Below, piece by piece: positions 230-39,314 of a DNA stretch of 39,525 bases (positions within the stretch are counted from its first letter, which is position 1; the number at the start of each line of letters is the position of its first letter). The translations under genes and the position numbers were made by a program. Source of the stretch: Methylophaga sp. (GTDB taxonomy: Bacteria; Pseudomonadota; Gammaproteobacteria; Nitrosococcales; Methylophagaceae); the NCBI GenBank assembly GCA_011053005.1, contig DRHW01000017.1, positions 1 through 39,525 of the forward strand, in the 5' to 3' direction. Under the pieces are notes generated by a model. That model made no database searches, was not told the DNA's origin, and was given only the letters and a program-made list of their open reading frames with translations.

Positions 230-1624
230 TTAGTTGGAAAGAAAAATGAAACCAACAGTAGCTGTCTCATTTTGCTGGTGATGGTTATGCACAAAATACA
301 TATTAAATATTTCTGCTGATTTTTTATCATTTATATTTTTAAGTGCACCAAATAGTTGAAAAGCGGCAACCTGAGTATCTTTAGTAGCCTCGACCTGCTC
401 ATTAATGGCCAAGGTAGTTGCAGCATCAAATAAATTATTAATAGAAAACCCCATGAGATCTGTTGGCGTTTTCTGTAAATATTCTGCCAGTCGATTATTT
501 ATCTTAAGAATAGTATTGTCTTGGCTAAAAGAAACGATACCGAACAGTGATTGAACGAAAATCGCATCCCATTGACTGAGACTTTGTTGAAGTGATTTCT
601 CTGTTTTCTTGAAATCAGTTATGTCTTGATTAACCTCGATAGCCCCAATAATTCGGTTATCGTTATCAAATAGGGGTGTTGCGTGCATCAGTATCGTACG
701 TTTTTCACCATCGAATGCTTCAATGTTAACAACTTCAGGCGAACTAGTTTCACCATGACTCACAGCACGTGCTAAGGTCCAACCTTCGGCGCCGACTTCT
801 TCGCCTGTATTTTCCCACCGACCCTTGTATTGACCATAATCTTTCAATTGAACATATTTAGCGCCACCCCAAATACGCTCTACTTCTGGGTTTGCAAGGC
901 ATATTTTGCTTGTTTCATCTGCTGCCCATAAACCTACGGGGACTGTCTCGATGATTTTACGCATCATGTATTCACTACGTTCTAAAGCATTTTCAATCTT
1001 TTTACGATTGGTGATCTCTGCTGATACAGCAATAATTTTTACTGGACGGTGTAATAGATCAAATATTAACTTTCCTCTAGATTCAAACCAACGTGTTTCA
1101 TTACCATCTTGTTTGTATACAAAATCCCATTGATAAGGTTCATGTTTAGAGAAAAGATCTACTAGTTCTTCTATCGATAATTCACTAAAAGGAAGAAAGG
1201 TTAAGCGAAATTGATCGGGTGTTTGATTAAATACGGTTTGTGCATTGTCTGAATAGTCTAATTTGTCTGTTAAAACATTCCATTCCCAATGAACAACGCC
1301 AGCTATTTCTAACGCCGTCTTCATTCGTATTTCACTATCCATAATCTGGCTGAGATATTCACGTCTGGTATCGCTGACAGCATTATTGTCAGACATCGAC
1401 TCTTGCAAGCTTGAAATAGCTTCATTGCCATAGCGTAGCCATACCCAATTCACATCTAAATAATCAGCGAGTGTTCTTAGATTGTCATATTCAATTTCGC
1501 CACCTCGTGTCCATCGATTTACAGATGGCACTGATGTTCCTGCAGCAGTTGCCACTTGAGATTGTGTTAGACCTTTTTGTTTTAATAAGTCTTTTAACCG
1601 ATCACCGAAACCATTTTTGAGCAT
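230..1624 (-). CDS. XRE-type HTH transcriptional regulator with three PAS-like sensor domains
   Basis: A 464-aa one-component regulator is predicted. Residues about 6-62 form a Cro/CI (XRE) helix-turn-helix, with the turn around TQSQVATAAGTSVPSVNRW. The rest is sensory: PAS-like segments at about 100-205 (ending in a PAC-like EITNRKK), 218-335 (ending in VNQDITDFKKTEK) and 345-464. No histidine kinase, GGDEF, EAL or AAA module is present, so the HTH is the only visible output. There is no signal peptide or membrane span, which suggests a cytoplasmic sensor of a small ligand, redox state or light. The gene diverges from the cupin/secreted protein/porin cassette across a 270-bp gap, the usual layout for a dedicated local regulator. 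An AAAAGG ribosome site precedes the ATG. The ligand is unknown, and control of the cassette is inferred from position only. Confidence 0.85.
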   Translation of the reverse strand: MLKNGFGDRLKDLLKQKGLTQSQVATAAGTSVPSVNRWTRGGEIEYDNLRTLADYLDVNWVWLRYGNEAISSLQESMSDNNAVSDTRREYLSQIMDSEIRMKTALEIAGVVHWEWNVLTDKLDYSDNAQTVFNQTPDQFRLTFLPFSELSIEELVDLFSKHEPYQWDFVYKQDGNETRWFESRGKLIFDLLHRPVKIIAVSAEITNRKKIENALERSEYMMRKIIETVPVGLWAADETSKICLANPEVERIWGGAKYVQLKDYGQYKGRWENTGEEVGAEGWTLARAVSHGETSSPEVVNIEAFDGEKRTILMHATPLFDNDNRIIGAIEVNQDITDFKKTEKSLQQSLSQWDAIFVQSLFGIVSFSQDNTILKINNRLAEYLQKTPTDLMGFSINNLFDAATTLAINEQVEATKDTQVAAFQLFGALKNINDKKSAEIFNMYFVHNHHQQNETATVGFIFLSN

Positions 1625-1811
1625 AAATTTGACCTTTTAAGTGCGCAAAGCACGACTTTAATACAAGACTCACTATTTAATATTGTTAGTCATATTAGCA
1701 CAGAAGCTAGGTATTCCATTGAGATGAGATTTCAAACATACTTAACAGGTAATAAATTACTTGACGGTTAATTTTCGTGAGGATATAACTGTTGTTGAAT
1801 TCTAATGAACT

Positions 1812-1850
1812 AATGTTTCCCTTGAGTAAACATTCATAAAGATCATAAGT
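1812..1850 (+). promoter_or_regulatory. Candidate promoter and operator of the cupin-porin cassette
   Basis: In the 270-bp divergent gap, AATGTTT (1812-1818) and AAACATT (1828-1834) form a perfect 7-bp inverted repeat with a 9-nt centre. The centre contains TTGAGT (1822-1827), a fair -35 box, followed after 17 nt by a weak -10, ATAAGT (1845-1850). A repressor on the inverted repeat would cover the -35. A second small inverted repeat, GTGC-gcaaa-GCAC, at 1641-1653 lies close to the regulator's own start. The cupin ribosome site GGAG (1883-1886) is 8 nt from its ATG. The promoter call is weak; the inverted repeat is directly visible. Confidence 0.4.
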
Positions 1851-1894
1851 CTTCTATAGAGCAAGATTAATTATTTATATTTGGAGTATTTATT

Positions 1895-2335
1895 ATGAAA
1901 AAAACGCATTTTATTGGTGGCTTACTTATAGCTGCAACAATAATTTTTGCTACGACAGTTTTTGCCCATGGTGTTGAAGTACCTGTTGGAAGTAAAAATT
2001 TAAAAATCTTTAAACATGCACAAGAAATGCCAATTGCATCTATGAATGAACCTGGTGTTAATGCATATTTCCAAGATATTGTTGGTTCAGGTGACCCTAA
2101 AGCACCAATTTCATGTGGCCTATTCAAAATAGAAAAAGGTAACCCGCTTGTTTATACCTACGATTATGACGATACAAAAATTATTCTAGATGGCCATATT
2201 TATTTTTCTGATGGTACACAGAAAGTTAAAGGTGAAAAAGGTGATGTGATGTATTTCCCTAAAGGTTCAACAATCACTTTTTCTACCGATGATTCAGGAC
2301 TTGCTTACGCCTGTGGTCAACGTAAATTGTTCTGA
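1895..2335 (+). CDS. Exported single-domain cupin protein
   Basis: This 146-aa protein has a Sec signal peptide (KK, hydrophobic core, likely cut after VFA near residue 24). The mature part is one small beta-barrel of the RmlC-like cupin type: GHIYFSDG (first cupin motif), GEKGDVMYFPKGSTITF (second motif, G-D-x-x-x-x-P-x-G). The layout resembles EutQ/cupin_3 proteins. The first motif keeps one histidine but lacks the usual HxH plus glutamate, so an ordinary metal-enzyme site is doubtful and a ligand-binding role is equally possible. It is the first gene of a cassette with a secreted protein and an outer-membrane protein. The GGAG ribosome site supports the start. The biochemical role is unknown. 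Confidence 0.8.
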   Translation: MKKTHFIGGLLIAATIIFATTVFAHGVEVPVGSKNLKIFKHAQEMPIASMNEPGVNAYFQDIVGSGDPKAPISCGLFKIEKGNPLVYTYDYDDTKIILDGHIYFSDGTQKVKGEKGDVMYFPKGSTITFSTDDSGLAYACGQRKLF

Positions 2336-2356
2336 TACTGAGAGTTAACTTAGTGA

Positions 2357-2388
2357 AATAGACGCCAGGATAGGTATTGGCGTCTATT
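2357..2388 (+). repeat. Strong 11-bp intercistronic hairpin without a U-tract
   Basis: AATAGACGCCA (2357-2367) and TGGCGTCTATT (2378-2388) are perfect reverse complements separated by 10 nt. The hairpin sits between the cupin stop and the AAGGAG ribosome site of the 514-aa gene. No T-run follows, so it does not look like an intrinsic terminator. It could be an mRNA stability or processing element that sets different levels for the cupin and the downstream genes. Confidence 0.7.
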
Positions 2389-2411
2389 CATAAGAAGGAG
2401 AGATAGAGAAA

Positions 2412-3956
2412 ATGAAAATAAAATCATTAGCTCATTTAATTACATTAAGTATTCCATTAGCTTTTTCTGCATCTATTCAAGCAGATCAAAACTTAACTGA
2501 TCTTACACAAGGCGATCCATTTTTTTATACTAGTGATCAATACATCAAAGCAGATAGTCCGCAAAGAGAGTTACTCGGAATAGGTCGACCAAATAAAACG
2601 CATTCGCAAATTCCACATTTGCCCGTTTATTTCGGATATATGAATACGAATTCAACTTATCGGTTTGTAAATATAGTTGAACAAGTATTTACAATGATTG
2701 GTGAAGGCAAGCATGGTCTATGGCGTGTGCAAGAAAATGGGACTGTTCGTGAGTATTTAAAAGCAGGAGCAAAAGGCTTAGCTCCAGGTGCTGATTTAAC
2801 AGCTAAAGCATCACAAAATATTATTGCAGAAAATTATAGTTCTTTTTTGCCGAATGAAAGTTGGTCAGGTTATAAATATCCTGATCAGAAGCTTAATGAA
2901 GCAGGAAAACTTAATTTTATTGACTTACCGATCACTCATCAGAAATACAAAGGTAAATACACCAAACATCAACCTGTTGATTTGCCTAGTTGGTATTGCA
3001 CAATGTCTGGTAATGATTACCCTTACGCACAGCAATCGATCAATTTCGCATTTGCCCAAAAAGCGAGTAACCAAGTTGGTCCGTTAGGTCAACGGGCAGG
3101 ATTAGACATTAAAGAAAATTACCGTAATGTCCTTCGTATAAATCCAATGGAAGATGCACGTACTTGGGTTAATGTTGCCAACAAACAGGGTGACAAGATC
3201 AATGTGAAATGGGAAGCCGTAGATACCCAACAAACAAATGCTGAATATTATCTTGTAGAACGACCATTCTTTAATAAACCTTATTTATTTGTTATGGCTG
3301 TTTATGACAATAAGGATAATAACGATCAGCATTATATTCGTCCTTATGGTGCATATTACGATGCAATTAAGAATCAAGGTTATGATCTAAAAACTACGGT
3401 AACGACGCAACCCCGCTTTCACTTAGAAAAGGGCGGCGAAGCTAAAGCAGTCGGTTTGCCAGTTTATGGCGTACATCATCCTAATCGAGCGATATATGGC
3501 GGCGGCGGCGCTTGTCCATTAAAAGGTGGAGATTGGGGAAGATATCCAGATACTAGTGGTGGATCTGGTTGGCCAACTCAGTATGAAGAAGTAACGCCAC
3601 TATGCGACTCAGTTTTGCTTGATATTAAATTTACCACCAACTTAGATGGTCGTGATTGGAATGATCCCAATAAATACCTAGCAAATGCTGGTGTTGGCAC
3701 GAAAGAAGTGACCTATAAGGTACAACCAGGCACCTATGGTGAATTTACTGATCCGTACAATACGGAACGTGGTGTTAAAAATGAACAAAGCGAATATGTA
3801 CCGAAAGAATTAACGATAAGTTTTCCTACGGTCAATGAACCGGTTTCGTATGAAACACCACCCAATCTAGATTTAACAGGAATGATGATTCCTTCAGAAT
3901 CAACTTCATGCCGTCCTATTATCGAAGCATCACTTAAGAAGGGAATCACAAAATGA
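2412..3956 (+). CDS. Secreted protein of unknown family
   Basis: A 514-aa protein with a clear Sec signal peptide (MKIKS start, hydrophobic core, likely cut after IQA at residue 24) and no later membrane span, so it is periplasmic, outer-membrane associated or secreted. I do not recognise a domain. Visible features are four cysteines (about 196, 368, 398 and 500), enough for two disulfides; a glycine-rich stretch GGGGACPLKGGDWG at 363-376; and many aromatic and Asp/Asn residues, as in beta-rich exported proteins. There is no lipobox. An excellent AAGGAG site (2395-2400) supports the start. It overlaps the porin gene by 4 bp (ATGA), so the two are probably translationally coupled and may work at the outer membrane together. 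No function is assigned. Confidence 0.8.
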   Translation: MKIKSLAHLITLSIPLAFSASIQADQNLTDLTQGDPFFYTSDQYIKADSPQRELLGIGRPNKTHSQIPHLPVYFGYMNTNSTYRFVNIVEQVFTMIGEGKHGLWRVQENGTVREYLKAGAKGLAPGADLTAKASQNIIAENYSSFLPNESWSGYKYPDQKLNEAGKLNFIDLPITHQKYKGKYTKHQPVDLPSWYCTMSGNDYPYAQQSINFAFAQKASNQVGPLGQRAGLDIKENYRNVLRINPMEDARTWVNVANKQGDKINVKWEAVDTQQTNAEYYLVERPFFNKPYLFVMAVYDNKDNNDQHYIRPYGAYYDAIKNQGYDLKTTVTTQPRFHLEKGGEAKAVGLPVYGVHHPNRAIYGGGGACPLKGGDWGRYPDTSGGSGWPTQYEEVTPLCDSVLLDIKFTTNLDGRDWNDPNKYLANAGVGTKEVTYKVQPGTYGEFTDPYNTERGVKNEQSEYVPKELTISFPTVNEPVSYETPPNLDLTGMMIPSESTSCRPIIEASLKKGITK

Positions 3957-4810
3957 ATTTAAAAATAACACTATTAAAATCTTTGCCCGTTGCCTTAGCA
4001 ATGACTATGGTTAACCCAGTTTTGGCTGATGTCGAAGTAGAAACCGGTCCAGCAGAAACTGGCCCAGCTAAAGCTGCAAAAGAATCTATGCAATTTACTG
4101 AATACTTAGATCGAGACGAGGTCTTAGGTGGTAAATTCAGCACTTGGGTAGAGTTTGCTTCTGATTACGTGTTTCGTGGTGAATCAGAAACCAATGATGG
4201 CAAAATACCATCTCTTAAAGCCGCTATAACTTGGACACATTCTAGCGGTATTTATTTAGGTTATTATGCTGCTAATAACCTGTTCCCTGGTGATGATTCT
4301 GAGGGTAACAATCCTAAGATCAACGCTATTTATGGCCCATATGTAGGTTATGCTACAAAAGATATTGCCGGCACGGGCATTAATTACAACGGGATGCTTT
4401 TCCAGTACATTTATCCTGGGGATAGTGATTCCAACTACTTGGAAATGTTTAACTACGCTGATAAACAATTTGGTGCAGTCAATATTAAACTAGAATATTC
4501 ACCGACTATCACTGATTGGTTTGGCGTCGAAGGTGTTCAATCACATAATTTTGCCATTCACCCAAGTATTGCGTTGCCTTATGATTTTGTCTTGTCGGGT
4601 AGCATTGGTCGTCAAATGTTTGAAAGTCAATATGATGCTGATTGGACACATTGGAATGTAGGTGTTAGTCGTAATGTATTTGGTTTTAATGTCGATGTGC
4701 GTTACCACGACACAAATATCAAAGTTGGTAAAAATGATTTCTACGGTTTTGAATCTAACAATCAAATCGTTGATAGTCGTGTAGTATTTGGCGTTTCTAA
4801 ATCTTTTTAA
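3953..4810 (+). CDS. TorF-family putative porin (Gcw_chp type)
   Basis: A 285-aa outer-membrane protein. It has a signal peptide cut near VLA/D (residue 25), then a short polar linker rich in E, T and A. From FSTWVEFASDYVFRGESET the pattern is that of the Gcw_chp/TorF family: alternating beta-strands, a YVFRG motif near the first strand, and a C-terminal aromatic residue (VSKSF) as expected for Bam-assembled barrels. In the family these are presumed channels for small solutes, with no general substrate known. It overlaps the preceding secreted-protein gene by 4 bp and is the last gene of the cassette, followed at once by a terminator. A role in moving the substrate or product of the cassette across the outer membrane is inferred. 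Confidence 0.85.
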   Translation: MNLKITLLKSLPVALAMTMVNPVLADVEVETGPAETGPAKAAKESMQFTEYLDRDEVLGGKFSTWVEFASDYVFRGESETNDGKIPSLKAAITWTHSSGIYLGYYAANNLFPGDDSEGNNPKINAIYGPYVGYATKDIAGTGINYNGMLFQYIYPGDSDSNYLEMFNYADKQFGAVNIKLEYSPTITDWFGVEGVQSHNFAIHPSIALPYDFVLSGSIGRQMFESQYDADWTHWNVGVSRNVFGFNVDVRYHDTNIKVGKNDFYGFESNNQIVDSRVVFGVSKSF

Positions 4811-4820
4811 AATTGTGTGC

Positions 4821-4857
4821 CCTCAGTCATTTTTAACGTGGCGACTGAGGTTTTTTT
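4821..4857 (+). terminator. Intrinsic terminator after the porin gene
   Basis: CCTCAGTC (4821-4828) pairs with GACTGAGG (4843-4850) around a 14-nt loop, followed by seven T (4851-4857). It lies 10 nt after the porin stop and closes the cassette. Confidence 0.85.
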
Positions 4858-14492: not shown

Positions 14493-16361
14493 TCACTCAG
14501 CAAACGACTTCTCATTCTCACGATGAATCATCATGATCGAAGAACGTGGTTTGCTGTTGCCGCCTGCTGGAAAGTGGGAAGGGGCTTTATCTTCACCGGG
14601 ATGTTGGATGCCGACAAATAAGGTTTTGTTGTCTTCACTGAAACATAATCCCGTAATTTCACAACCAATCGGGCCAGTCATAAAACGGCGAATTTCACCC
14701 GTATTTGGATCGCTGCATAACATTTGGTTATTACCCATACCGGCAAATTTACCTTTATTGCTATCTTTACCATCGGTTAATATCCACAGGCGACCAGCGG
14801 CATCAAAGCCTATTCCATCGGGACTATTGAACATATTATCTGGCGTAACATTAGACGTGCCCGCACGAGCATCGTGATAAACACTTGGGTTTCCAGCTAA
14901 CAAATACAAATCCCATTCAAACTCATTATTAGTGTGGTCGCCTAATAATGGATGCCAACGGACAATTTGACCGTAGCTATTATCTTGTCGTGGATTAGGA
15001 CCATTCACAGGTTGATCTGCGGAACCGCGATCACTGTTATTAGTTAAGGTGCAATAAACAGTAGATTGATCGGGATGAACGGCAATCCATTCAGGGCGAT
15101 CCATCTTGGTCGCGCCAACAATGCTGGCGGCTTTTCGAGCATAAATTAGTACTTCAGCTTGATCGGCAAAACCTGCTTCTGTGGTCAGGCCATTTTTGCC
15201 ATGCGTTAATTCTAACCATTCGCCACGACCACGTAATGCATCAAATTCGCCATTAAATCTTGCGACATAAAGCGTGCCTTCTTCCAGTAAATCACGATTT
15301 TGTTGTGGCTTGTTTTCGTCAAATTTATTTTTAGAAACAAAGCGATAGATATGTTCGCCTTTTTGGTCATCGCCCATGTAAACAACGACATGACCATCTT
15401 TATTAACGGTAATCGCTGCATTTTCATGTTTAAAACGACCTAATGCTGAACGTTTTTGTGGAATGGAATCAGGGTTCATCGGGTCGATTTCGACTATCCA
15501 ACCAAAGCGATTGGGTTCATTAGGATTTTTGACGATATCAAATCGGGGATCATGTTGTTCCCATTGGTAATATGATTTATCACCTTTAATGTCATAACGT
15601 TTTTGTTCGGCACTTTGCTGATGTGGCGCGATGCTGCCAAAATTGAAATTGACGTTTTCTTCACAGGTTAAATAGGTTCCCCACGGCGTTTTGCCATTTG
15701 AGCAATTATTAAACGTACCTAAAATTTGAGTGCCTGTTGGATCGGCTTGTGTTTTTAATAATCGATGACCCGCCGCTGGACCAGTCATGTGCATCAGTGT
15801 ATTGGCAGTAATCCGTCGATTGAGTTTGCCGTTTTGGTCTAAAGCCCATGCTGAATCTTTACGAATAATTTCAAAGATTGAAATGCCATGAGCTGCCTGA
15901 CTTTTAGCTACATCATCGGCAGTCAATGAACTGCCATCATGATCAAATAAATATTTTTGGTTGGTGTATTCGTTGTTGACCACCATCAAAGCACGATCGG
16001 CGCTGAGTGGAAAACACGACATGCCGTCATTATTATCGCCAAATTGGAGTGCTTGTGATGCGGCATTACCTTTACCTGAAGGATCAAATGGTGGTGCATT
16101 GGGAAAGAGCGGATCGCCCCAAGAAATAAGCACTTCCGCTCGATAATTTTTCGGCACGATCACTGTATCACTTGTGCTGGCGGGTATTGATTGAAAATCG
16201 AACAGTGTTGATGGCGCGGCAGAAAATGCTTGTTTAATCGGCATGCCCGCTAAAAAAGTGCCTGCGCCAACGAGACCGGCCGATTGTAAGAAGGTACGTC
16301 GACTTAGAACATTAGCAATCAAAGATTCAAGTTCAGGTGATTTTGTAAGGTGATCTTTCAT
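14493..16361 (-). CDS. phoX: PhoX-type alkaline phosphatase (DUF839), Tat-exported
   Basis: A 622-aa PhoX-family protein. The N-terminus carries a twin-arginine signal, SRRTFLQSAGLVGAG (RR at 21-22), likely cut near AFSA (48). The mature part shows family landmarks: TYLTCEENVNFNFG, GWIVEIDP, RFKHENAAI, VVYMGDDQKGEHIYRFVSK, SPDGIGFDAAGRLWILTDG and TGLCFSEDNKTLFVGIQHPG. Known PhoX enzymes are Ca/Fe-dependent phosphomonoesterases used under phosphate limitation, and Tat export fits cytoplasmic cofactor loading. Some DUF839 proteins are not proven phosphatases. The 142-bp upstream region contains a perfect 11-bp inverted repeat; I found no clean PhoB box. Confidence 0.88.
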   Translation of the reverse strand: MKDHLTKSPELESLIANVLSRRTFLQSAGLVGAGTFLAGMPIKQAFSAAPSTLFDFQSIPASTSDTVIVPKNYRAEVLISWGDPLFPNAPPFDPSGKGNAASQALQFGDNNDGMSCFPLSADRALMVVNNEYTNQKYLFDHDGSSLTADDVAKSQAAHGISIFEIIRKDSAWALDQNGKLNRRITANTLMHMTGPAAGHRLLKTQADPTGTQILGTFNNCSNGKTPWGTYLTCEENVNFNFGSIAPHQQSAEQKRYDIKGDKSYYQWEQHDPRFDIVKNPNEPNRFGWIVEIDPMNPDSIPQKRSALGRFKHENAAITVNKDGHVVVYMGDDQKGEHIYRFVSKNKFDENKPQQNRDLLEEGTLYVARFNGEFDALRGRGEWLELTHGKNGLTTEAGFADQAEVLIYARKAASIVGATKMDRPEWIAVHPDQSTVYCTLTNNSDRGSADQPVNGPNPRQDNSYGQIVRWHPLLGDHTNNEFEWDLYLLAGNPSVYHDARAGTSNVTPDNMFNSPDGIGFDAAGRLWILTDGKDSNKGKFAGMGNNQMLCSDPNTGEIRRFMTGPIGCEITGLCFSEDNKTLFVGIQHPGEDKAPSHFPAGGNSKPRSSIMMIHRENEKSFAE

Positions 16362-18624: not shown

Positions 18625-20673
18625 TTAGTAATCCCAAGTTAGGTTTACACCGACTACGCGAGGTTGGGCAGTTTGTGTGTAAGTATTGGTATTTGAACCA
18701 TCATATAATGGTGGAGTGTTGTCGAATTCAAACCCCCGAGTGTAATAGTCTTTATCAAACAAATTACGAGCCCATAAAGAGACTTTCCAGTCGCCTTGTT
18801 TGTAATCTAAATTTGAGTTGACGATGGCATAAGAGCTTGATTTTGAAGCATGGCTATTGGAGTAATAAAATTCATCCTTACCTTCAATATTGGCCCTAAA
18901 TGTCCAGTTTGACGTTAAGTATATTTCACTGCCCAAGCTAAATTGATAAGCCGGTGCATGCGCTTGGCGTCGACCATTAGCATTGTAAGCATCGGGATCG
19001 GGATTATCGTATTCTTCAAAAGTCGCGTTCAGTAAACCTAAAGAAGCAAAAATACGTAATTTGTCAGATGCCGACCAATCAGCTTCTGCTTCGATACCAT
19101 AATTGGTGCCTTTAGCTGCATTGGTTAAATAGTCTTTAAACTTGCCGGCAACCGCAACGGAGGTTTTTACTTGTGCATCACGTCGTAGTGAATAGAAAGC
19201 ATTAATGCTTGTCATTAAGTCGCCATCAAGCCAAAGTGACTTCAGACCTGTCTCTAAATTCCACATATATTCATTATCAAATTTTAGTTGTGTTGGGAGT
19301 AGCTTTGTACTGTTATTTATACCTCCTGATTTGTAGCCACGTGATAACGAGGTATAGATAAGTTGGTTTTCTTCTAATTGATAATTTAAGCCTAATTTCC
19401 CACCAAATAAGACTTCATCTATCTCTTTATCGATTGCATTTGAGTCGGAATAATCAGCTGTGAAATATTCGACGCGCAAGCCCGAAATGAGCGTTAATTT
19501 ATCAGTTAGGTGGCTATCAAGTTGACCGAAGATAGAGATGTTTTCAGTTTTATAATCATTATCCAAATTGCTATAAGTATAGTTCCTATCTAATTTTTCA
19601 TCTTGGGCTAAGTGATAAAACCCAACTGCCCATTCAGTGCTGTTATTGAATATCCAACCATCTTCATTCGATAAGGCTTTGATCTCTACAGAGCGATTAA
19701 TTCTGCTTCGATTATATTCGTCAAATGCATCATAAATTGGATTATTAACCCAATCATCGTCATAACTATAAACACTGTCGGAGTTTAAGTAGGTTAAAGC
19801 CGTTTGGAGCTGGACTGAACTACTTGCACGCCAATCTGTTTTTAGTGCGATAGCATCTGTTTTTTGGCTATCTTCACCGGGTTGATCTGCTTGACTACGA
19901 CGTGAGTTATCAAATGCAAAGGCATCGTAACCATTATCAATATTAAGGTGTATTAAATTCAAATCGACGGTTAAGCGATCGCTAGCCAACCATTTTAAAT
20001 GGCCTTTTGCTGTGACTTCATCTTGATCTTGAGTGTCATCACGATTCAAAAAGTCATTTTTTATATAACCATCAGATTGATGGCTGTTGATTGAAAACCG
20101 ACCTAGTAATTTGTCTTCAACTAAAGCGCCGCCGACTGCGACACCAAAATCTTGCGTTCCATATTGAGCAATGCCTGTTTCAACATGAATATCAAGATCA
20201 TTCGTAGGTTGCTTGCTTTGCATATTGATAACGCCAGCAAGTGCATTGGTGCCGAAAAGCGTACCTTGAGGACCACGTAAAACTTCAACTTGTTCAACAT
20301 CGAATAAGGTTGCGGCACCACCAATACGGCTAAAATCGATACCATCAATCATCAAACCAACAGAAGGATTAAGCGGTGCTTTAAATTCGCTACGTTCGCC
20401 GATGCCACGAATTTGGAAATATTGGCCACGTGAGGCACCACTTGAAACATTGACGTTAGGCGCGAGGTTTAAGACATCTTCAAGATGCTGAGCACCACGA
20501 GATTCGATAGTATCGCTATTAATGGTGGTTAAACTGATGGGAGTTTCTTGGGCTGTATTGGGACGAAAATCAGCATTGATCACCATGGCTGGAAGTTCGA
20601 CTTCAGCAGTGTCAGCAAGGGTATAGCTGGGAAGTAATGCTGCGATGGCGGCGGGTAAAAACTTAAACTTCAT
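18625..20673 (-). CDS. TonB-dependent outer-membrane receptor, probably for thiamine
   Basis: A 682-aa receptor with a signal peptide (cut near TLA/D, residue 20), a likely TonB box around VELPAMVI, a plug domain (QHLEDVLNLAPNVNV, YFQIRGIGER, VEVLRGPQGTLFGTNALAGVINM) and a 22-strand-type barrel with TYTQTAQPRVVGVNLTWDY at the end and a final aromatic residue. The TPP riboswitch in its leader and the downstream YkoF-like and pnuT genes indicate thiamine or a thiamine phosphate as substrate. The ATG follows AAGG, which can be hidden in a hairpin (20680-20700). Complete, with no frameshift. Confidence 0.92.
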   Translation of the reverse strand: MKFKFLPAAIAALLPSYTLADTAEVELPAMVINADFRPNTAQETPISLTTINSDTIESRGAQHLEDVLNLAPNVNVSSGASRGQYFQIRGIGERSEFKAPLNPSVGLMIDGIDFSRIGGAATLFDVEQVEVLRGPQGTLFGTNALAGVINMQSKQPTNDLDIHVETGIAQYGTQDFGVAVGGALVEDKLLGRFSINSHQSDGYIKNDFLNRDDTQDQDEVTAKGHLKWLASDRLTVDLNLIHLNIDNGYDAFAFDNSRRSQADQPGEDSQKTDAIALKTDWRASSSVQLQTALTYLNSDSVYSYDDDWVNNPIYDAFDEYNRSRINRSVEIKALSNEDGWIFNNSTEWAVGFYHLAQDEKLDRNYTYSNLDNDYKTENISIFGQLDSHLTDKLTLISGLRVEYFTADYSDSNAIDKEIDEVLFGGKLGLNYQLEENQLIYTSLSRGYKSGGINNSTKLLPTQLKFDNEYMWNLETGLKSLWLDGDLMTSINAFYSLRRDAQVKTSVAVAGKFKDYLTNAAKGTNYGIEAEADWSASDKLRIFASLGLLNATFEEYDNPDPDAYNANGRRQAHAPAYQFSLGSEIYLTSNWTFRANIEGKDEFYYSNSHASKSSSYAIVNSNLDYKQGDWKVSLWARNLFDKDYYTRGFEFDNTPPLYDGSNTNTYTQTAQPRVVGVNLTWDY

Positions 20674-34380: not shown

Positions 34381-37300
34381 TTAGCGTAATTGGCGCCATG
34401 ATTGACGGCCAGTAGGATCACCGCTAGATTCTTTAATATTATCTAAATTACCACTCGAACCGCTCACATACTTCATTTCGGTTCCATCTTCAGTGGTAAC
34501 AATTCCTGGTGTTTTGATAATGCCAATGTCATGTTTTCTAATGCCACTTACTTCAACATTGTCATTAGAGTCGATAACGCCATCTTTATTAGTATCATAA
34601 GATTGTATCAAATCCGCAGTATCAAATTTACCATCTCCATTAATATCAAATGGCGATGTCGAAAGTCTTCGACCATTAACAGCATCGAGCTCCATCAACC
34701 AGCTTGTTCCACCCCATCCACAAGGATCGCTTTCAGGAATTAAAGTAGCAAAAATAACGCGTCCTCCTCGTAATATCGGGGATGACACTACTCGTTCGCC
34801 TTCGGCGTTGTTGACTGGTGATATAAGATCCATATACCAACCTTTCTGCGTCGAATAGTCAATGGCTGTATCCGATGTGACGCGGAGATCTATTGCTAAT
34901 GAAGCAATGGTTGTTTCAAATAGAATCTTCTGTTCCTGTAAGCTCGTTTTAGAAGTTATGACTGCATTTTGATCTCGGATTGCATAAAAACTATTTACTT
35001 GTGGTGAAGCATTAACAACTTGGTCATTTACTTCAAAGTATTTACCTGTACCAAAATAGACCATAAGTCCACCATCAGGATGCTTACCAACCTGAGGTTT
35101 AGCACTAATTGCTTGAGTTACATTATTAGCGTCTTTAGCAATAAATAGGGGAGCAGGTTTACTATCAGCGCCTATGAATGCAACTTTCCAACCTGAGGCA
35201 GTTGTTGAGCCCATATCAAATTTCCAAAGATTACCAAGCAAATCTCCAGCAAAAATAGAGTCAACGGTTCCATCATTATTTTCATCTACAGCAATAGGCG
35301 TGGATAAACCGTTAGGACTTCCTGAGCCGCCTTTGCCCGTATCTATCATTGTAATGATGTCACCCGTTTCAATATCAATAACAAATAACACGGCACGTTG
35401 ATTAGTGCTTTCATAACCATTAGCAACAATTGCAGCCCATTTACCGTTATTCATTCTAACGATAGAACCTTGGGATATTGTATAACCAATGTTGTTCGTA
35501 ATTTGATTAAATGTAGCTGGATTCGCAATGGGATCCACATTAGGAATATTAGTTGTCGAAAACTCCCACATTACATTGCTATTAGTGAAAGCATTTGGCG
35601 CCCCAGTTGTCGAGGCATTAGTAGGCTTAGTAATGTCTAATGCGAAAAATCCTTTACCACCACCACCTAGAGTACCTAGTAATATAGAATACCAAGACTT
35701 GCCAGAACCCAAATTAATATAAGCATCTCCTGCCTTTGGGGCTCCATCTACGAAGTATTCATGTGGTATGCAACTTGTTCCTGTACAACCATAAAGCGGT
35801 GAAGCCAGTAGATTTAACTTAGGTATTAAACTTTCAGGAATATAAGCAAATTTTTCAATACCTGTATTGGCATCAATTGCATGGAGCATTCCATCATTAG
35901 CACCGAAATATAACATTGCTGTTTTAGTTTTTTTGCTGGTTAAATATGCGGGATAGCTTGTTCCTTCTGTACCGTTTAAAACGCTATAACCTAAGTTATC
36001 TGATTGACCTACAAACCAAGGATCAGAATTGACAACGTCACCTAATATTGATGTACGAGGGCGAAATAAACCGTCAGGAATTTCATTACTATGATCTCCT
36101 CTAATATAATTAGTCCGAAGAAGCCCTTTCGTATCAACAGTGCCTGTAGCATCTTTACTTAATGCGGCTTTTTGCTTTGTATTAAGGTTTGCATATTCGA
36201 ATTCGATGCCTTTACTACTACCAGTAGCCAATGGATTATATGAAAAGATATTGCGGCTATTCTCTGCAGGGATGAGATCTGCTGCATCCCATACCTGATT
36301 TCCAATTTCGCCAGTAGTATCATCTAAATCATAGGCTAATAATTGGCCACTCCACTCACGGCTATTGAAGCGAGCTTGATATATTTTGGTATTGGTATCA
36401 AGCCTCGTGGAGTTAGTTGCAACAGCCGCAGATGAACTCGTTCTTGCAATAATTTCTGCAAATGCTTTGTTCAGTTGCGTTTCTAACTTACCTGCATTGG
36501 TCACCAAGAAATAACCATCGGGACTGCCGTCATTATCCGTATCCCATTCGTCTGTTTCTAAAGTGCCATTCTCATTTGTATCTGTCATTGACCATTTTGC
36601 AGCATACCAGAGAGGATCATGTTTTATAAAGCTAGCAGATGCTGACGTACCAACAGTAAAAGTTCGTTTGCTATATAGGGGTAATGGAATGTTGTCATTC
36701 CAAATGCCGCTTGGCGTAGTATCCAGAAAGTAATCTTCATCGCCGTCTGAAGCATTATCAGGTACATCCCTCACATCTAAGTATGTACCATCCTGAGTGG
36801 TACCTGAAATTACATAACCAATATGTTGGTCTATGCCGCCAGCCGCATAAGTAGAGTTTAGTTCTACCTCTAACTGATTACTGCCATTTACTGTAAAAAT
36901 ATACTCAACGATAGCATCCATATCATGATCAGCGGCTTGTTCCACATCTTCATAATTGATGCGAAACAAACCATAAGGGCGACCGCCATTAACACTGGCA
37001 TCCATATTCCCTGCATTAGTATTAACTATCTTCTCTATATAAAAATCGACAATTTGGTTGGTTGGTTGAAAATCGCCTTTTTTATTTGAAATACTATTGC
37101 CACCAACGGATTTGGCAAAAGGGACAAGCGTTACGGTTTTACCTGCAATAGGGATTGTAATGCGCGGTAATGGCGAGGCAAGTGCTACGGATAAGGTATC
37201 TACATTCTGCTCACCTTTTACGGTATTTAAGTCATTTTTTTTGCCATACAAAGCTACGCTGCCGGAGTAATAACTTCCTAGTTTGGTTGGCTCTTCGGGT

Positions 37301-39285
37301 GCAAGTCCTCGAATATTAGAAAAACTATTGACTGTTTTTGCTGAAGGCGTGCCGTCACTATTTGTGCCAGATTGGCCAATAAATATATTGGTTGCTTCAG
37401 ATTCGCCAGCCCAGATATTATCCGCTAAGGCTGAGACATTCATTCCAGTTAAGTCCCCGGTGAAACTACTAAAATAACTGCCAGGGACTTGGTCACTATC
37501 ATAAGATGAGTTTATGTCACTGATAACTAGCTGTAATGGTTTAGCGCAATGTGCATAACCGCCATCGGTTGTCCTATAGGGATCCACCCATTTTGGAAGC
37601 GGAAGACCGAGTGTTTTATCCGTTCCATCCTTGACACCATCGTTAAACGCTGAAGTTGGGGAGGCTTTGCCTGCAAAATAACGTAATCCTTCGTACATCA
37701 TTTCTGCAATAGGATTTCCCCATTCTTGTGCTTCACCATTCTTGATTGATCGAGTTGTAATAAAGCCCGACTTATATAGGTGATTAGAGTAGCTGAAACT
37801 TTCTACGCGAAGCTTATTCAATGTATCGACAATACCGCTCATTGAAGTGAAAATTCCTGTTTCGAGATTAACTTCATCTGTAAATGAGGCGATATTTTTC
37901 CTAATAACGCCACCGGCTGTATTATTAGTATAAGAACCTGTCAGCAAACCAAATGCCATCAAATCATCTTCGCCATAGCGCTGTAAAATCCCTGTTGGTT
38001 TGTAAGTCGTCGTCGTGTCATCGCTATATGCCTTACAATTAGACTCTAATAAATCAGTGACGCATGCTTTAACGTTGACGCTGTAATCTGTAATTTTAGA
38101 TGTAGGAATCGTTTTCACCCAGCGTAAAACAAAACCGTCACCCCCCGTTCTTTCTTCGTGACGAAATTTAATAGTATGAGTGCCTGCTGCCAGAGATATT
38201 GAGCCTGTTGTATGAGTATCACAGTTACAAAAGCCATGTCCTCCGTAGTATCCAGCAACATAAAGATCATCAATAATGACATCAACTGCATCATCACCAT
38301 CGACAGTGAATTCATAATTTCCTGAGGATGGAATATTAAGCTCAGCAGTCACAACCGTCATATAATTGTCATCAGCGCCATATGGATTATCATTTCCTTC
38401 GATCGTTGTCATTGAGCCGCTGCCATCTAATTTTGCTGGAATAGCATAATTAATTTCCCAAGTATTAAAGTCATTACGGTTATTAGGATGATTACTTCCA
38501 GTTCCTGATATATTGTAAATTTTACGTACGACGTTACTTAATACTGTGCTTGGTACTGTTACGCCTGATGTTCCACCTGCTTTAGCACAATTAGGTCCGG
38601 AACCACCATCCAAGCACTTAGTACCTGCAACAGGACGTTCAATAGATACCCATTCCCAAATACGGTACGTACTGTCGTTAAGAACACGCATAAGAGGCTG
38701 ACCTGAGTAGCTCAAAGATGTATTAGCAAATAAGTGGCGAGTGCCAATAGTGGGTTGGCTAAGAGGTGTGTATTTACTTATATCGTAACCATTTACTACT
38801 GTACTGGTATATTCTTTACCCCAGCTGTGTGCGTCTTGTGGAATAAAAGCGCGTTTAAGTACTGTTTGTGATGTGGTGTCTACCGAACGAAAACCACCAT
38901 AAAGTACTTTACGTAAAGCATCCATGCGGCTGGTTGTAACATAGTTAAGAAAGTCACCGCTCCAATTTCCTGAACATTGTTTATTACTCGTTTTAGATAC
39001 CGGTGAAAAAAGATCAGAGCTGTAGGTGTAGCATTTGTATGAATCAAAATAGCCAAAATAATCGATTTCAGGATCGTAACCAATATCTAGTTGACCATCG
39101 TCGTTTAAATCAGAGGCATCATTGTATGCTTCATAGTAAAGTTTATGGTCGCGTCCCATTGTTAACATCACTATGGGCGGGACACCGTTGGTTAGAAACA
39201 GAGGATACTGAGCTATTGATGTAACTGCGCCAGCATTGCTAATAGATAGAAACAGTATTAATATGGGCAAATAAATTTTTCTCAT
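34381..39285 (-). CDS. pilY1: Type IV pilus tip adhesin/biogenesis protein PilY1 with an inserted PA14-like domain
   Basis: A 1634-aa exported PilY1/PilC-type protein. Signal peptide at residues 1-20. The N-terminal part begins VPPIVMLTMGRDHKLYYEAYND and has an EF-hand-like DLNDDGQLDIG (59-69). Residues about 303-393 look like a PA14/GLEYA beta-barrel (IPSSGNYEFTVDGDDAVDV, GTHTIKFRHEERTGGDGF). A Ca-type loop near 897-919 (DTNENGTLETDEWDTDNDG) follows. The C-terminal 650 residues are the PilC beta-propeller (YQARFNSREWSGQLLAYDL, LYFGANDGMLHAID), with more Asp-rich loops (DINGDGKFD, DTNKDGVID) near the end. AGGA touches the ATG at 39291 but is 6 nt from the one at 39285, which I chose. It controls pilus extension and adhesion. 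Confidence 0.94.
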   Translation of the reverse strand: MRKIYLPILILFLSISNAGAVTSIAQYPLFLTNGVPPIVMLTMGRDHKLYYEAYNDASDLNDDGQLDIGYDPEIDYFGYFDSYKCYTYSSDLFSPVSKTSNKQCSGNWSGDFLNYVTTSRMDALRKVLYGGFRSVDTTSQTVLKRAFIPQDAHSWGKEYTSTVVNGYDISKYTPLSQPTIGTRHLFANTSLSYSGQPLMRVLNDSTYRIWEWVSIERPVAGTKCLDGGSGPNCAKAGGTSGVTVPSTVLSNVVRKIYNISGTGSNHPNNRNDFNTWEINYAIPAKLDGSGSMTTIEGNDNPYGADDNYMTVVTAELNIPSSGNYEFTVDGDDAVDVIIDDLYVAGYYGGHGFCNCDTHTTGSISLAAGTHTIKFRHEERTGGDGFVLRWVKTIPTSKITDYSVNVKACVTDLLESNCKAYSDDTTTTYKPTGILQRYGEDDLMAFGLLTGSYTNNTAGGVIRKNIASFTDEVNLETGIFTSMSGIVDTLNKLRVESFSYSNHLYKSGFITTRSIKNGEAQEWGNPIAEMMYEGLRYFAGKASPTSAFNDGVKDGTDKTLGLPLPKWVDPYRTTDGGYAHCAKPLQLVISDINSSYDSDQVPGSYFSSFTGDLTGMNVSALADNIWAGESEATNIFIGQSGTNSDGTPSAKTVNSFSNIRGLAPEEPTKLGSYYSGSVALYGKKNDLNTVKGEQNVDTLSVALASPLPRITIPIAGKTVTLVPFAKSVGGNSISNKKGDFQPTNQIVDFYIEKIVNTNAGNMDASVNGGRPYGLFRINYEDVEQAADHDMDAIVEYIFTVNGSNQLEVELNSTYAAGGIDQHIGYVISGTTQDGTYLDVRDVPDNASDGDEDYFLDTTPSGIWNDNIPLPLYSKRTFTVGTSASASFIKHDPLWYAAKWSMTDTNENGTLETDEWDTDNDGSPDGYFLVTNAGKLETQLNKAFAEIIARTSSSAAVATNSTRLDTNTKIYQARFNSREWSGQLLAYDLDDTTGEIGNQVWDAADLIPAENSRNIFSYNPLATGSSKGIEFEYANLNTKQKAALSKDATGTVDTKGLLRTNYIRGDHSNEIPDGLFRPRTSILGDVVNSDPWFVGQSDNLGYSVLNGTEGTSYPAYLTSKKTKTAMLYFGANDGMLHAIDANTGIEKFAYIPESLIPKLNLLASPLYGCTGTSCIPHEYFVDGAPKAGDAYINLGSGKSWYSILLGTLGGGGKGFFALDITKPTNASTTGAPNAFTNSNVMWEFSTTNIPNVDPIANPATFNQITNNIGYTISQGSIVRMNNGKWAAIVANGYESTNQRAVLFVIDIETGDIITMIDTGKGGSGSPNGLSTPIAVDENNDGTVDSIFAGDLLGNLWKFDMGSTTASGWKVAFIGADSKPAPLFIAKDANNVTQAISAKPQVGKHPDGGLMVYFGTGKYFEVNDQVVNASPQVNSFYAIRDQNAVITSKTSLQEQKILFETTIASLAIDLRVTSDTAIDYSTQKGWYMDLISPVNNAEGERVVSSPILRGGRVIFATLIPESDPCGWGGTSWLMELDAVNGRRLSTSPFDINGDGKFDTADLIQSYDTNKDGVIDSNDNVEVSGIRKHDIGIIKTPGIVTTEDGTEMKYVSGSSGNLDNIKESSGDPTGRQSWRQLR

Positions 39286-39314
39286 TATCATTCCTCTATG
39301 TCGGACATAGTGTT

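Follow-up and report, generated by a model that had tools for sequence, protein, structure and literature searches.

A portable cassette of a EutQ-like cupin, an orphan 514-residue protein and an optional TorF-family porin in Methylophaga and other Proteobacteria

We analyzed a 39,525-nt stretch of DNA from Methylophaga sp., referred to here as the window, and confirmed the four genes that the initial annotation had placed between positions 230 and 4857 (Table 1). The gene for a regulator (REG) faces those for a cupin (CUP), a 514-aa protein (P514) and a porin across an intergenic gap of 270 bp (1625-1894), which also contains, as had been proposed, a candidate operator that is now backed by conservation. 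Two of the genes had been described as translationally coupled, and an overlap of P514 and the porin gene by ATGA is indeed seen; this 4-bp arrangement is retained in 9 of the 15 porin-bearing loci discussed below. On the basis of N-termini read in homologues, CUP, P514 and the porin are all predicted to be exported.

Table 1. Features of the cassette, with positions in the 39,525-nt window
Feature	Position	Strand	Basis
REG, one-component regulator with XRE/Cro-type HTH and PAS	230..1624	-	HTH_3 and PAS models
Candidate REG operator, consensus AGTAATAAATTACTTGACANGTAAT	1748..1772	+	Conservation across REG loci
Sigma-70-type promoter	1761..1789	+	TTGACG 1761-1766, 17 bp, TATAAC 1784-1789
CUP, EutQ-like cupin, predicted exported (N-terminus reading)	1895..2335	+	PF06249; PDB EutQ 2pyt
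Intercistronic hairpin with 12-bp stem, CUP/P514 gap	2357..2388	+	Folding of 2336-2411
P514, 514-aa orphan protein, predicted exported (N-terminus reading), cassette core	2412..3956	+	No family match
TorF-family (Gcw_chp) outer-membrane porin, overlapping P514	3953..4810	+	TIGR02001
Terminator-like stem and T7	4821..4857	+	Folding, z -1.5

Neither the promoter nor the terminator is on the list produced by the pattern scanner. With a folding energy of -13.0 kcal/mol, the stem at 4821-4850 and the T7 after it make a plausible rather than a strong terminator, and the earlier claim that the exported genes have one terminator in common stands in this weakened form. The hairpin between CUP and P514 had been missed by the initial annotation; the stretch containing it folds at -23.2 kcal/mol (z -5.75). 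The same gap in six relatives gives z values of -3.0 (L046), -2.2 (L006), -2.0 (L005), -1.3 (L010), -0.7 (L007) and +0.6 (L013), a spread that rules out the hairpin as a conserved element.

Three of the four proteins can be assigned to families. REG carries an HTH_3 domain (residues 10-63; 42.9 bits versus a cut-off of 23), PAS models above their cut-offs and three sensory-box stretches, and FixL is the closest solved structure (E 1e-6, residues 103-256). CUP exceeds the Pfam gathering scores for PF06249 (EutQ; 41.2 versus 21 bits) and PF05899 (25.1 versus 23.5 bits), and a 12-row CUP profile matches EutQ in the PDB with an E value of 1.4e-10. Although this cupin domain corresponds to that of the EutQ of ethanolamine utilization, CUP is predicted to be exported, has 146 aa as compared with the 233 positions of the EutQ model, and fails the NCBIfam EutQ equivalog cut-off (31.8 versus 193 bits). 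No eut genes were recognized near the cassette when the ORFs of cassette loci were read without a per-gene family search. The porin lies above both curated cut-offs for TorF putative porins, with 139.6 versus 47.15 bits for TIGR02001 (residues 57-285) and 80 versus 24 bits for PF09694, and nothing sets it apart from this family, which Pfam lists as being of unknown function. Matches of the porin to coronavirus protease in phmmer (0.026 and above) were dismissed as chance.

P514 has no significant match in Pfam, NCBIfam, PHROGs or the PDB, which leaves it outside the well-known families to which the initial annotation had allowed that it might prove to belong. Pfam gives no match for the window copy and a best E value of 0.33 over 13 members, the best NCBIfam match is at 0.051, PHROGs returns none, and the best PDB match obtained with the P514 profile is at 0.55. 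Matches to the IniB N-terminus (0.051) and leucyl aminopeptidase (0.075), each seen for one of 13 members, were attributed to chance, as were weak ones to aromatic dioxygenase beta (0.55) and phosphatase 2C (1.5). No homologues were found among viral contigs or phage records. Homologues that are 55-80% identical to the window copy are present in gamma-, beta- and alphaproteobacteria, mostly in methylotrophs as judged by genus name; a 79-residue match in G906 (E 0.0028) that contains a stop was excluded from the Methylophilaceae count. There are 23 known copies; 13 of them were aligned, giving a mean column identity of 73%, and in this alignment His-64, His-69, His-101, His-176, His-186, His-355, His-356, Cys-196, Cys-368, Cys-398, Cys-500, Trp-104, Trp-252, Trp-267 and Trp-416 are invariant. 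The dN/dS ratio could be computed for two of five pairs, giving 0.045 and 0.059, which are rough values with dS above 1. An enzyme is the most likely identity for P514, given its 55-80% identity to the window copy across three classes and the seven His and four Cys that never vary among the 13 aligned copies. Structure prediction of P514 alone, which the initial annotation had recommended, yielded low-confidence models and no fold: AlphaFold gave a mean pLDDT of 42.5 for the full-length protein with 12 alignment rows, and of 40.9 for the mature part of the Methylotenera homologue with 13 rows. Models as poor as these would give meaningless matches in a fold search.

In the recommended comparison of distant genomes, CUP and P514 stay together throughout: the cupin gene precedes that for P514 in all 22 assessable loci, and the neighborhood is kept across alpha-, beta- and gammaproteobacteria rather than its homologues being scattered. 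Secreted-type cupin and P514 also mark an identical set of genomes in the order (9 of 63). Of 21 assessable loci, 15 have the porin gene after that for P514 and six lack it there, so that the porin is an optional member of the unit, and the outer-membrane passage envisaged by the initial annotation becomes an add-on rather than part of the core. A regulator adjoins the unit in 21 of 22 assessable loci. In 12 of these it is an orthologue of REG facing the cassette, and in the other nine an unrelated LuxR-type protein takes its place; the PAS-rich regulator is therefore a role in the unit and not a fixed protein. Flanking genes mostly differ between loci, and one copy is carried on a 653-kb Paracoccus plasmid. 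A tree built from 21 copies of P514 suggests both regulator exchange during the history of the unit and its transfer into Enterovibrio. The four genes are a conserved, portable unit, in keeping with the earlier view of a linked, regulated, exported system that lacks a described counterpart.

REG has the features of an XRE-type regulator, namely HTH_3 with PAS and a dyad operator in the divergent promoter, the latter identified by conservation only. The operator scores 20-25 of 25 in all 11 REG loci tested, on a consensus derived from these same loci, while the highest score among 300 first-order random sequences per locus is 19; in contrast, none of the nine LuxR-type loci scores above 17. The LuxR-type loci have a putative operator of their own, TAGGGGTTTTTTGTCATG, which shows the reverse pattern and scores above all random sequences in eight of nine such loci. 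Two regulator types are thereby shown, each with its own conserved candidate operator, in what appears to be a clean case of joint replacement of regulator and operator by an unrelated pair, with the target genes left in place. Moreover, the XRE-PAS operator is found at a single genomic site, at the cassette promoter, in eight of nine genomes (a reversed control pattern gave 0), and the regulator would thus govern a one-target regulon. The -35 hexamer of the window promoter sits within the REG operator; a promoter pattern could be parsed in 5 of 11 REG loci, with 17-bp spacing in every case.

Genes surrounding the unit were clustered for 17 loci, and further loci were compared by BLAST with the cassette proteins and otherwise read by eye. 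Near relatives alone share particular neighbors (the hpnC side in the window and L006; two genes in L014 and L015), and the other recurrent ones, in two or three of the 17 loci, are EAL/PAS proteins, P-type ATPases, solute symporters and response regulators. As only these broad families recur beyond near relatives, neighboring genes were rejected as a guide to function, and those confined to single genomes (sarcosine oxidase in G812, formamidase in Paracoccus, transport genes and a MauG-like protein) were left out of our main claim. The neighbors nevertheless bear on two alternatives. The first, which is close to the idea in the initial annotation and which we consider unlikely, is a module for taking up and binding a scavenged nutrient in which P514 and the cupin act as periplasmic binding proteins, TorF admits the ligand and the regulator senses it after import. 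Three exported proteins including a porin, the linkage of that porin in 15 of 21 loci, the ABC-transporter set adjoining the unit in Enterovibrio and the sodium/solute-symporter-like genes near it in L010 and L011 would all be consistent with this proposal. No inner-membrane transporter, however, is common to more than two of the 17 clustered loci (others being read by eye), six of 21 loci have no porin beside P514, and P514 has no match among binding-protein families; sequence conservation that extends, as in P514, over 500 residues is probably also greater than is usual for such proteins.

The second alternative, that P514 is a metalloprotein or modified-tryptophan protein serviced by redox partners, takes its support from the seven His, four Cys and four Trp that are invariant in 13 copies. 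In addition, the gene 3' of P514 in G180, on the same strand and in the usual place of the porin, encodes a protein that has two CxxCH motifs and weakly resembles MauG/MbnH, and reading of sequences near the unit gave P-type ATPase genes (L011, L008) and, in L048, an azurin-like gene. Yet the metal genes vary between loci and G180 is the only one of 21 loci with a readable downstream side to have a MauG-like neighbor, and we regard this explanation as very unlikely.

The initial annotation gave the locus no biological theme, noting that no known-pathway enzyme is included; cupin paralogues in dimethylamine (DMA) and trimethylamine-N-oxide (TMAO) demethylation clusters, the best clue to function, supply one. 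Signal-less cupins account for 13 matches in the order, and nine of these 13 loci were fetched. DmmA, reductase and HODM-alpha genes lie beside the cupin in eight of these nine, the exception (L092) being without the three monooxygenase genes, and a TorF porin is also present in five; family names come from scanned copies, with the remaining copies assigned by BLAST clustering. Clusters elsewhere combine the cupin with TMAO demethylase and Dmm genes (G241) or with trimethylamine (TMA) monooxygenase and TMAO demethylase (G145), and a Ca. Mycobacterium methanotrophicum plasmid has a paralogue in an amine demethylation cluster. Methylated-amine genes are seen close to P514 itself in only two cases: in G790, trimethylamine dehydrogenase (PDB match of 1121.6 bits) is 2 kb from the cassette, and in G812 there is a looser association with adjoining sarcosine oxidase. 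Upstream of the G812 unit there is also a NarXL-like pair that resembles the one in dmm clusters. Searching 24 cassette sequences with Dmm proteins (tblastn, E 1e-10) found no Dmm subunits; the matches were to a GcvT domain within sarcosine-oxidase alpha in L016 and to NarX/NarL-type proteins in L052, L048, L034 and L046. We infer, by association, that the unit is linked to methylated-amine metabolism.

This link could instead be an accident of paralogy, the unit having an unrelated role in which the EutQ-like cupin fold is re-used, as cupins widely are. Consistent with this possibility, Dmm-type cupins occur in 4 of the 9 genomes of the order with P514 and in 9 of the 54 others, a difference that is not significant (p 0.078), and three cupin relatives have surroundings other than amine clusters: those of G044 and G185 pair with a LuxR-type regulator and that on a Jannaschia plasmid sits among other genes, with no amine enzyme seen in any of them. 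The cupin profile, however, matches only 7 of 369 genomes of the class (1e-6), and four of its six places without P514 are amine clusters, the other two being LuxR-type pairs, which leads us to view coincidence as somewhat unlikely.

The same clusters bear on a role in aldehyde metabolism, in which the cupin and P514 would capture or convert formaldehyde, or an amine-aldehyde adduct, and the regulator would sense aldehyde; a periplasmic methanol dehydrogenase or the demethylases would be the source of the formaldehyde. TMAO demethylase and dimethylamine monooxygenase, which adjoin cytosolic cupin paralogues, release formaldehyde, and EutQ, the named relative of CUP, comes from a pathway that yields aldehyde and ammonia. 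PQQ alcohol dehydrogenases are over the cut-off in 9 of 11 hosts tested, but G180 and G812 have no such match. Furthermore, the unit contains no formaldehyde enzyme, and although most members of this largely methylotrophic order should face formaldehyde, only 9 of its 63 genomes have the unit. We think that a periplasmic aldehyde module is improbable.

Comparison with the dmm clusters of Methylophagaceae and other bacteria delimits the unit further. Their cupin shares its family with the window CUP, to which it is 36-46% identical over nine loci, a TorF-family porin occurs in five of nine, and a PAS protein is close by. In contrast to the cassette, however, their cupin lacks a signal peptide, their enzymes belong to known families that read as cytoplasmic, P514 is absent, and their regulators look NarXL-like. 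The best scores for the two cassette operators in three dmm loci are 19 of 25 and 14 of 18, which are not outstanding, in a comparison made without a random control. Cupins of the same broad kind are described near trimethylamine and methylamine oxidation genes of Arthrobacter and Mycobacterium, which are Gram-positive hosts, in passages of a 2015 report (PMC5023230) that do not mention P514, a porin or a dedicated operator. These passages note EutQ-like cupins near amine oxidation genes as being of unknown function and hypothesize that they matter for methylated-amine oxidation.

Our preferred reading, which we hold tentatively as possible rather than probable, is that the unit is a self-contained, horizontally mobile one-operon regulon, inducible, periplasmic and tied to N-methylated amines. 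The adjacent regulator, XRE-PAS in the window, would hold the cupin-P514-porin promoter through the dyad site over the -35 hexamer and, because the operator covers this hexamer, would most simply repress the promoter in the absence of a signal, presumably a cytoplasmic molecule, that its PAS domains bind or sense. P514 and the EutQ-like cupin would then enter the periplasm, the former as an enzyme and the latter as its accessory, and the TorF porin would provide an optional entry or exit route in the outer membrane. The substrates would most likely be N-methylated amines or relate to their demethylation, given that signal-less cupin paralogues, often with a TorF porin, sit in DMA and TMAO demethylation clusters. 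A bolder proposal, which we judge quite improbable, would make P514 the founder of a new periplasmic enzyme class whose members demethylate or oxidize N-methylated compounds outside the cytoplasm, perhaps by means of a metal or a protein-derived cofactor, and have the exported EutQ-like cupin as partner. Were this true, the Tdm/Dmm route of the cytoplasm would have a periplasmic equivalent that travels as a one-operon regulon. The question about EutQ cupins raised in those passages of the 2015 report (PMC5023230) becomes testable through an exported cupin that has its own partner and promoter. More broadly, P514, being conserved yet without a recognizable relative, marks an unstudied function in methylotrophs, and it carries weight because these organisms control methylamine and methanol fluxes.

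The window forms the beginning of contig C17 in a 2.9 Mb genome that carries a single copy of P514, the 514-aa orphan protein. The initial annotation had placed four genes here, and gene reading together with family searches bears out all four positions; they encode REG (an XRE-PAS one-component regulator), CUP (an EutQ-like cupin), P514 and a TorF porin.

Coordinates of the cassette genes and of other features observed in the window and in fetched loci (L numbers)
Feature	Sequence	Position	Strand	Remark
REG	window	230-1624	-	XRE-PAS regulator
CUP	window	1895-2335		cupin
Hairpin	window	2357-2388		in the CUP-P514 gap; the fold of 2336-2411 has z -5.75; not kept in all relatives
P514	window	2412-3956		orphan protein
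TorF	window	3953-4810		porin
PhoX-family alkaline phosphatase	window	14493-16361		612 bits
TonB-dependent receptor-like protein	window	18625-20673		682 aa; assigned by reading the sequence
PilY1-like protein	window	34381-39291		1636 aa; PA14 domain
Cupin of dmm-type cluster	L088	7945-8292		contig C15, window's own genome
REG of close relative G768	L005	110-1512		reads as two ORFs; may be interrupted in this metagenome-assembled genome
Protein directly 3' of P514 in G180	L035	4169-5851		560 aa; two CxxCH motifs; weak MauG/MbnH similarity
Tandem cupins of G812	L052	5869-6697		signal-like N-terminus in second copy only
LuxR-type (REG3-like) regulator and cupin	L105	8633-9862		MOSC/YiiM gene adjoins
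LuxR-type (REG3-like) regulator and cupin	L106	7533-8767		regulator read as two overlapping ORFs
Small Cupin_3 protein	L027	6359-6802
Small Cupin_3 protein	L029	9664-10047		close to trimethylamine-dehydrogenase-like genes
Small Cupin_3 protein	L031	1091-1474
Small Cupin_3 protein	L092	14230-14598		close to trimethylamine-dehydrogenase-like genes

P514 falls into no family: the window protein has no match in Pfam (best value over 13 members, 0.33), PHROGs gives none, the best NCBIfam match stands at 0.051, and the best PDB match, obtained with a profile, at 0.55. Within the order 9 of 63 genomes have a homologue, and within the class 3 of 369; homologues also come from 7 of 150 genomes of the family of Methylotenera oryzisoli (leaving out one weak match), 12 loci in genome_contigs and one of 72,556 plasmids, with none in phage records; the single positives among 398 genomes of the phylum and 248 of the family of a Paracoccaceae MAG are the window and that MAG themselves. 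Merging records of one genome gives 23 genomes or records, with hosts that include Methylophaga and relatives, Methylotenera, Methylophilus, Enterovibrio, Microvirga and a Paracoccus plasmid of 653 kb. Identity to the window copy is 60-80% (55% for the 5' part in G812), and because these searches returned no more remote relatives, the family appears narrow and isolated.

CUP lies directly 5' of P514 in all 22 genomes in which that side is readable (in G209 a contig end cuts it), and the nine genomes of the order that have a secreted-type cupin (E below 1e-60) are exactly those that have P514. TorF follows 3' in 15 of 21, G947 and G209 being unreadable there; it was not found beside P514 in the Enterovibrio, Microvirga, Paracoccaceae, Paracoccus, G180 and G812 loci (L013, L009, L012, L017, L035 and L016, respectively). 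The P514/TorF overlap is ATGA in 9 of 15 loci. A regulator adjoins the unit in 21 of 22 genomes, with G180 as the one exception in which none was recognised: 12 carry REG and nine carry REG3, which has a C-terminal LuxR-type HTH and an N-terminal part that appears GAF-like by reading alone, no GAF model having matched. REG3 is located on the far side of P514 in the three alphaproteobacterial loci. In G812 the tandem cupins adjoin a P514 truncated where the contig ends, and a 3' part of P514 is on another contig (L016). Flanking genes are mostly unlike between loci, the exceptions being an hpnC-side position common to the window, L006 and L031, genes that L014 shares with L015, and an additional small cupin close to the L027, L029 and L031 cassettes.

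Each regulator class has its own candidate operator. Of the REG loci, 11 were tested (all but L053), and each has a site like AGTAATAAATTACTTGACANGTAAT that begins 118-159 bp before the cupin. It scores 20-25 of 25 there, no more than 17 in the nine REG3 loci and no more than 19 among the 300 first-order random sequences generated for each locus; these scores are partly circular since the consensus was built from the loci scored, although the contrast between classes is less so. The site overlaps a promoter -35 (TTGAC in 10 of 11, TTTAC in L047), with a TATA-type -10 at 17 bp, a spacing that a script recovered in 5 of 11. With up to three mismatches allowed, 8 of 9 genomes contain a single site, the one at the cassette, compared with no matches for the reversed control pattern, and the ninth genome (G823) has it with four mismatches. 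From this single occurrence REG looks like a one-target regulator, and the position of the predicted operator suggests that REG represses the unit.

All nine REG3 loci have a TAGGGG...TCATG/TCAAG-type site (TCATA in G812) located 79-107 bp before the cupin, or before the first cupin of the G812 tandem pair. This site beats every random sequence in eight loci and ties the random maximum in Microvirga L009. Among the eight genomes searched, the cassette gives the best match in G806, G807, G747, G757, G821, G812 and G810, and the Microvirga (G808) site has more than three mismatches; the remaining matches, at 2-3 mismatches, number 16 versus 22 for a control pattern.

In a midpoint-rooted tree of 21 of the 23 P514 copies, REG3 cassettes fall outside a mostly-REG clade (support 83/92). 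Methylotenera and G821 form a REG3 subclade (99/98) that sits inside the REG cassettes with moderate support (82/87 and 86/89), and the Enterovibrio copy clusters with two Methylophaga-type rows (96/95). This tree supports, as its simplest interpretation, that regulator and operator were swapped together within the unit, and that the unit was transferred between classes. Loci L105 and L106 have a P514-less regulator and cupin with the REG3 operator motif, and this REG3-like regulator and cupin pair may be the unit's ancestral core.

Cupin paralogues offer a clue to function. Searching the 63 genomes of the order with a cupin profile detects a further paralogue without a signal peptide in 13, including the window's own. 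Nine of these 13 loci were fetched (L088-L096, dmm-type clusters of Methylophagaceae), and in every one the EutQ-like cupin has both a PAS protein and a NarXL-like pair nearby. Eight also contain DmmA, ferredoxin reductase and HODM alpha, identified by PF22290 and PF11927 in the window genome's copy and by BLAST clustering elsewhere; L092 is without them. TorF lies inside the dmm-type cluster in five of nine (the one scanned gave 159.6 bits versus a cut-off of 47.15). Across the class the profile finds eight places in seven of 369 genomes: two dmm loci (G160 and one place in the window's genome), two P514 loci (G180 and the window genome's other place), a G241 row that starts with a TMAO demethylase truncated at the contig end (1026 bits against a cut-off of 1100) and continues with the cupin, DmmA, reductase and HODM alpha, a G145 cupin with TMA monooxygenase (837.5 versus 675 bits) and TMAO demethylase (1068, just under 1100), and P514-less REG3-cupin pairs in G044, accompanied by a MOSC gene, and G185, which keep the REG3 motif (16 and 15 of 18, respectively). 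The cupin precedes dmmA on a plasmid of Ca. Mycobacterium methanotrophicum and is accompanied by other genes on a Jannaschia plasmid. Next to the G790 cassette are another small cupin and a trimethylamine dehydrogenase, the latter matching PDB 1djn at 1121.6 bits, and in G812 REG3 has a NarXL-like pair upstream. The small Cupin_3 protein is close to the cassette in three genomes.

PMC5023230 notes that EutQ cupins lie close to genes for the oxidation of trimethylamine and methylamine, and proposes that they take part in methylated-amine oxidation; the literature consulted gives the cupin no established role in dimethylamine oxidation. These associations suggest a methylated-amine theme for the unit. 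Against it, co-occurrence of P514 with the Dmm-type cupin in the order is not significant (p 0.078), and amine enzymes were not recognised beside P514 in most genomes.

At the level of sequence, these comparisons establish the operon, the P514/TorF overlap, two conserved regulator-operator pairs and a single genomic site for the REG operator. N-termini read by eye suggest that the products of the unit are exported; P514 may be an enzyme with the cupin as its partner. Porin, cupin and regulator belong to known families, and P514 and the gene combination appear undescribed, as we found no description of either the unit or P514 in the openly licensed literature. As the findings so far demonstrate no new principle, we read the unit as a putative inducible periplasmic module of a known kind.
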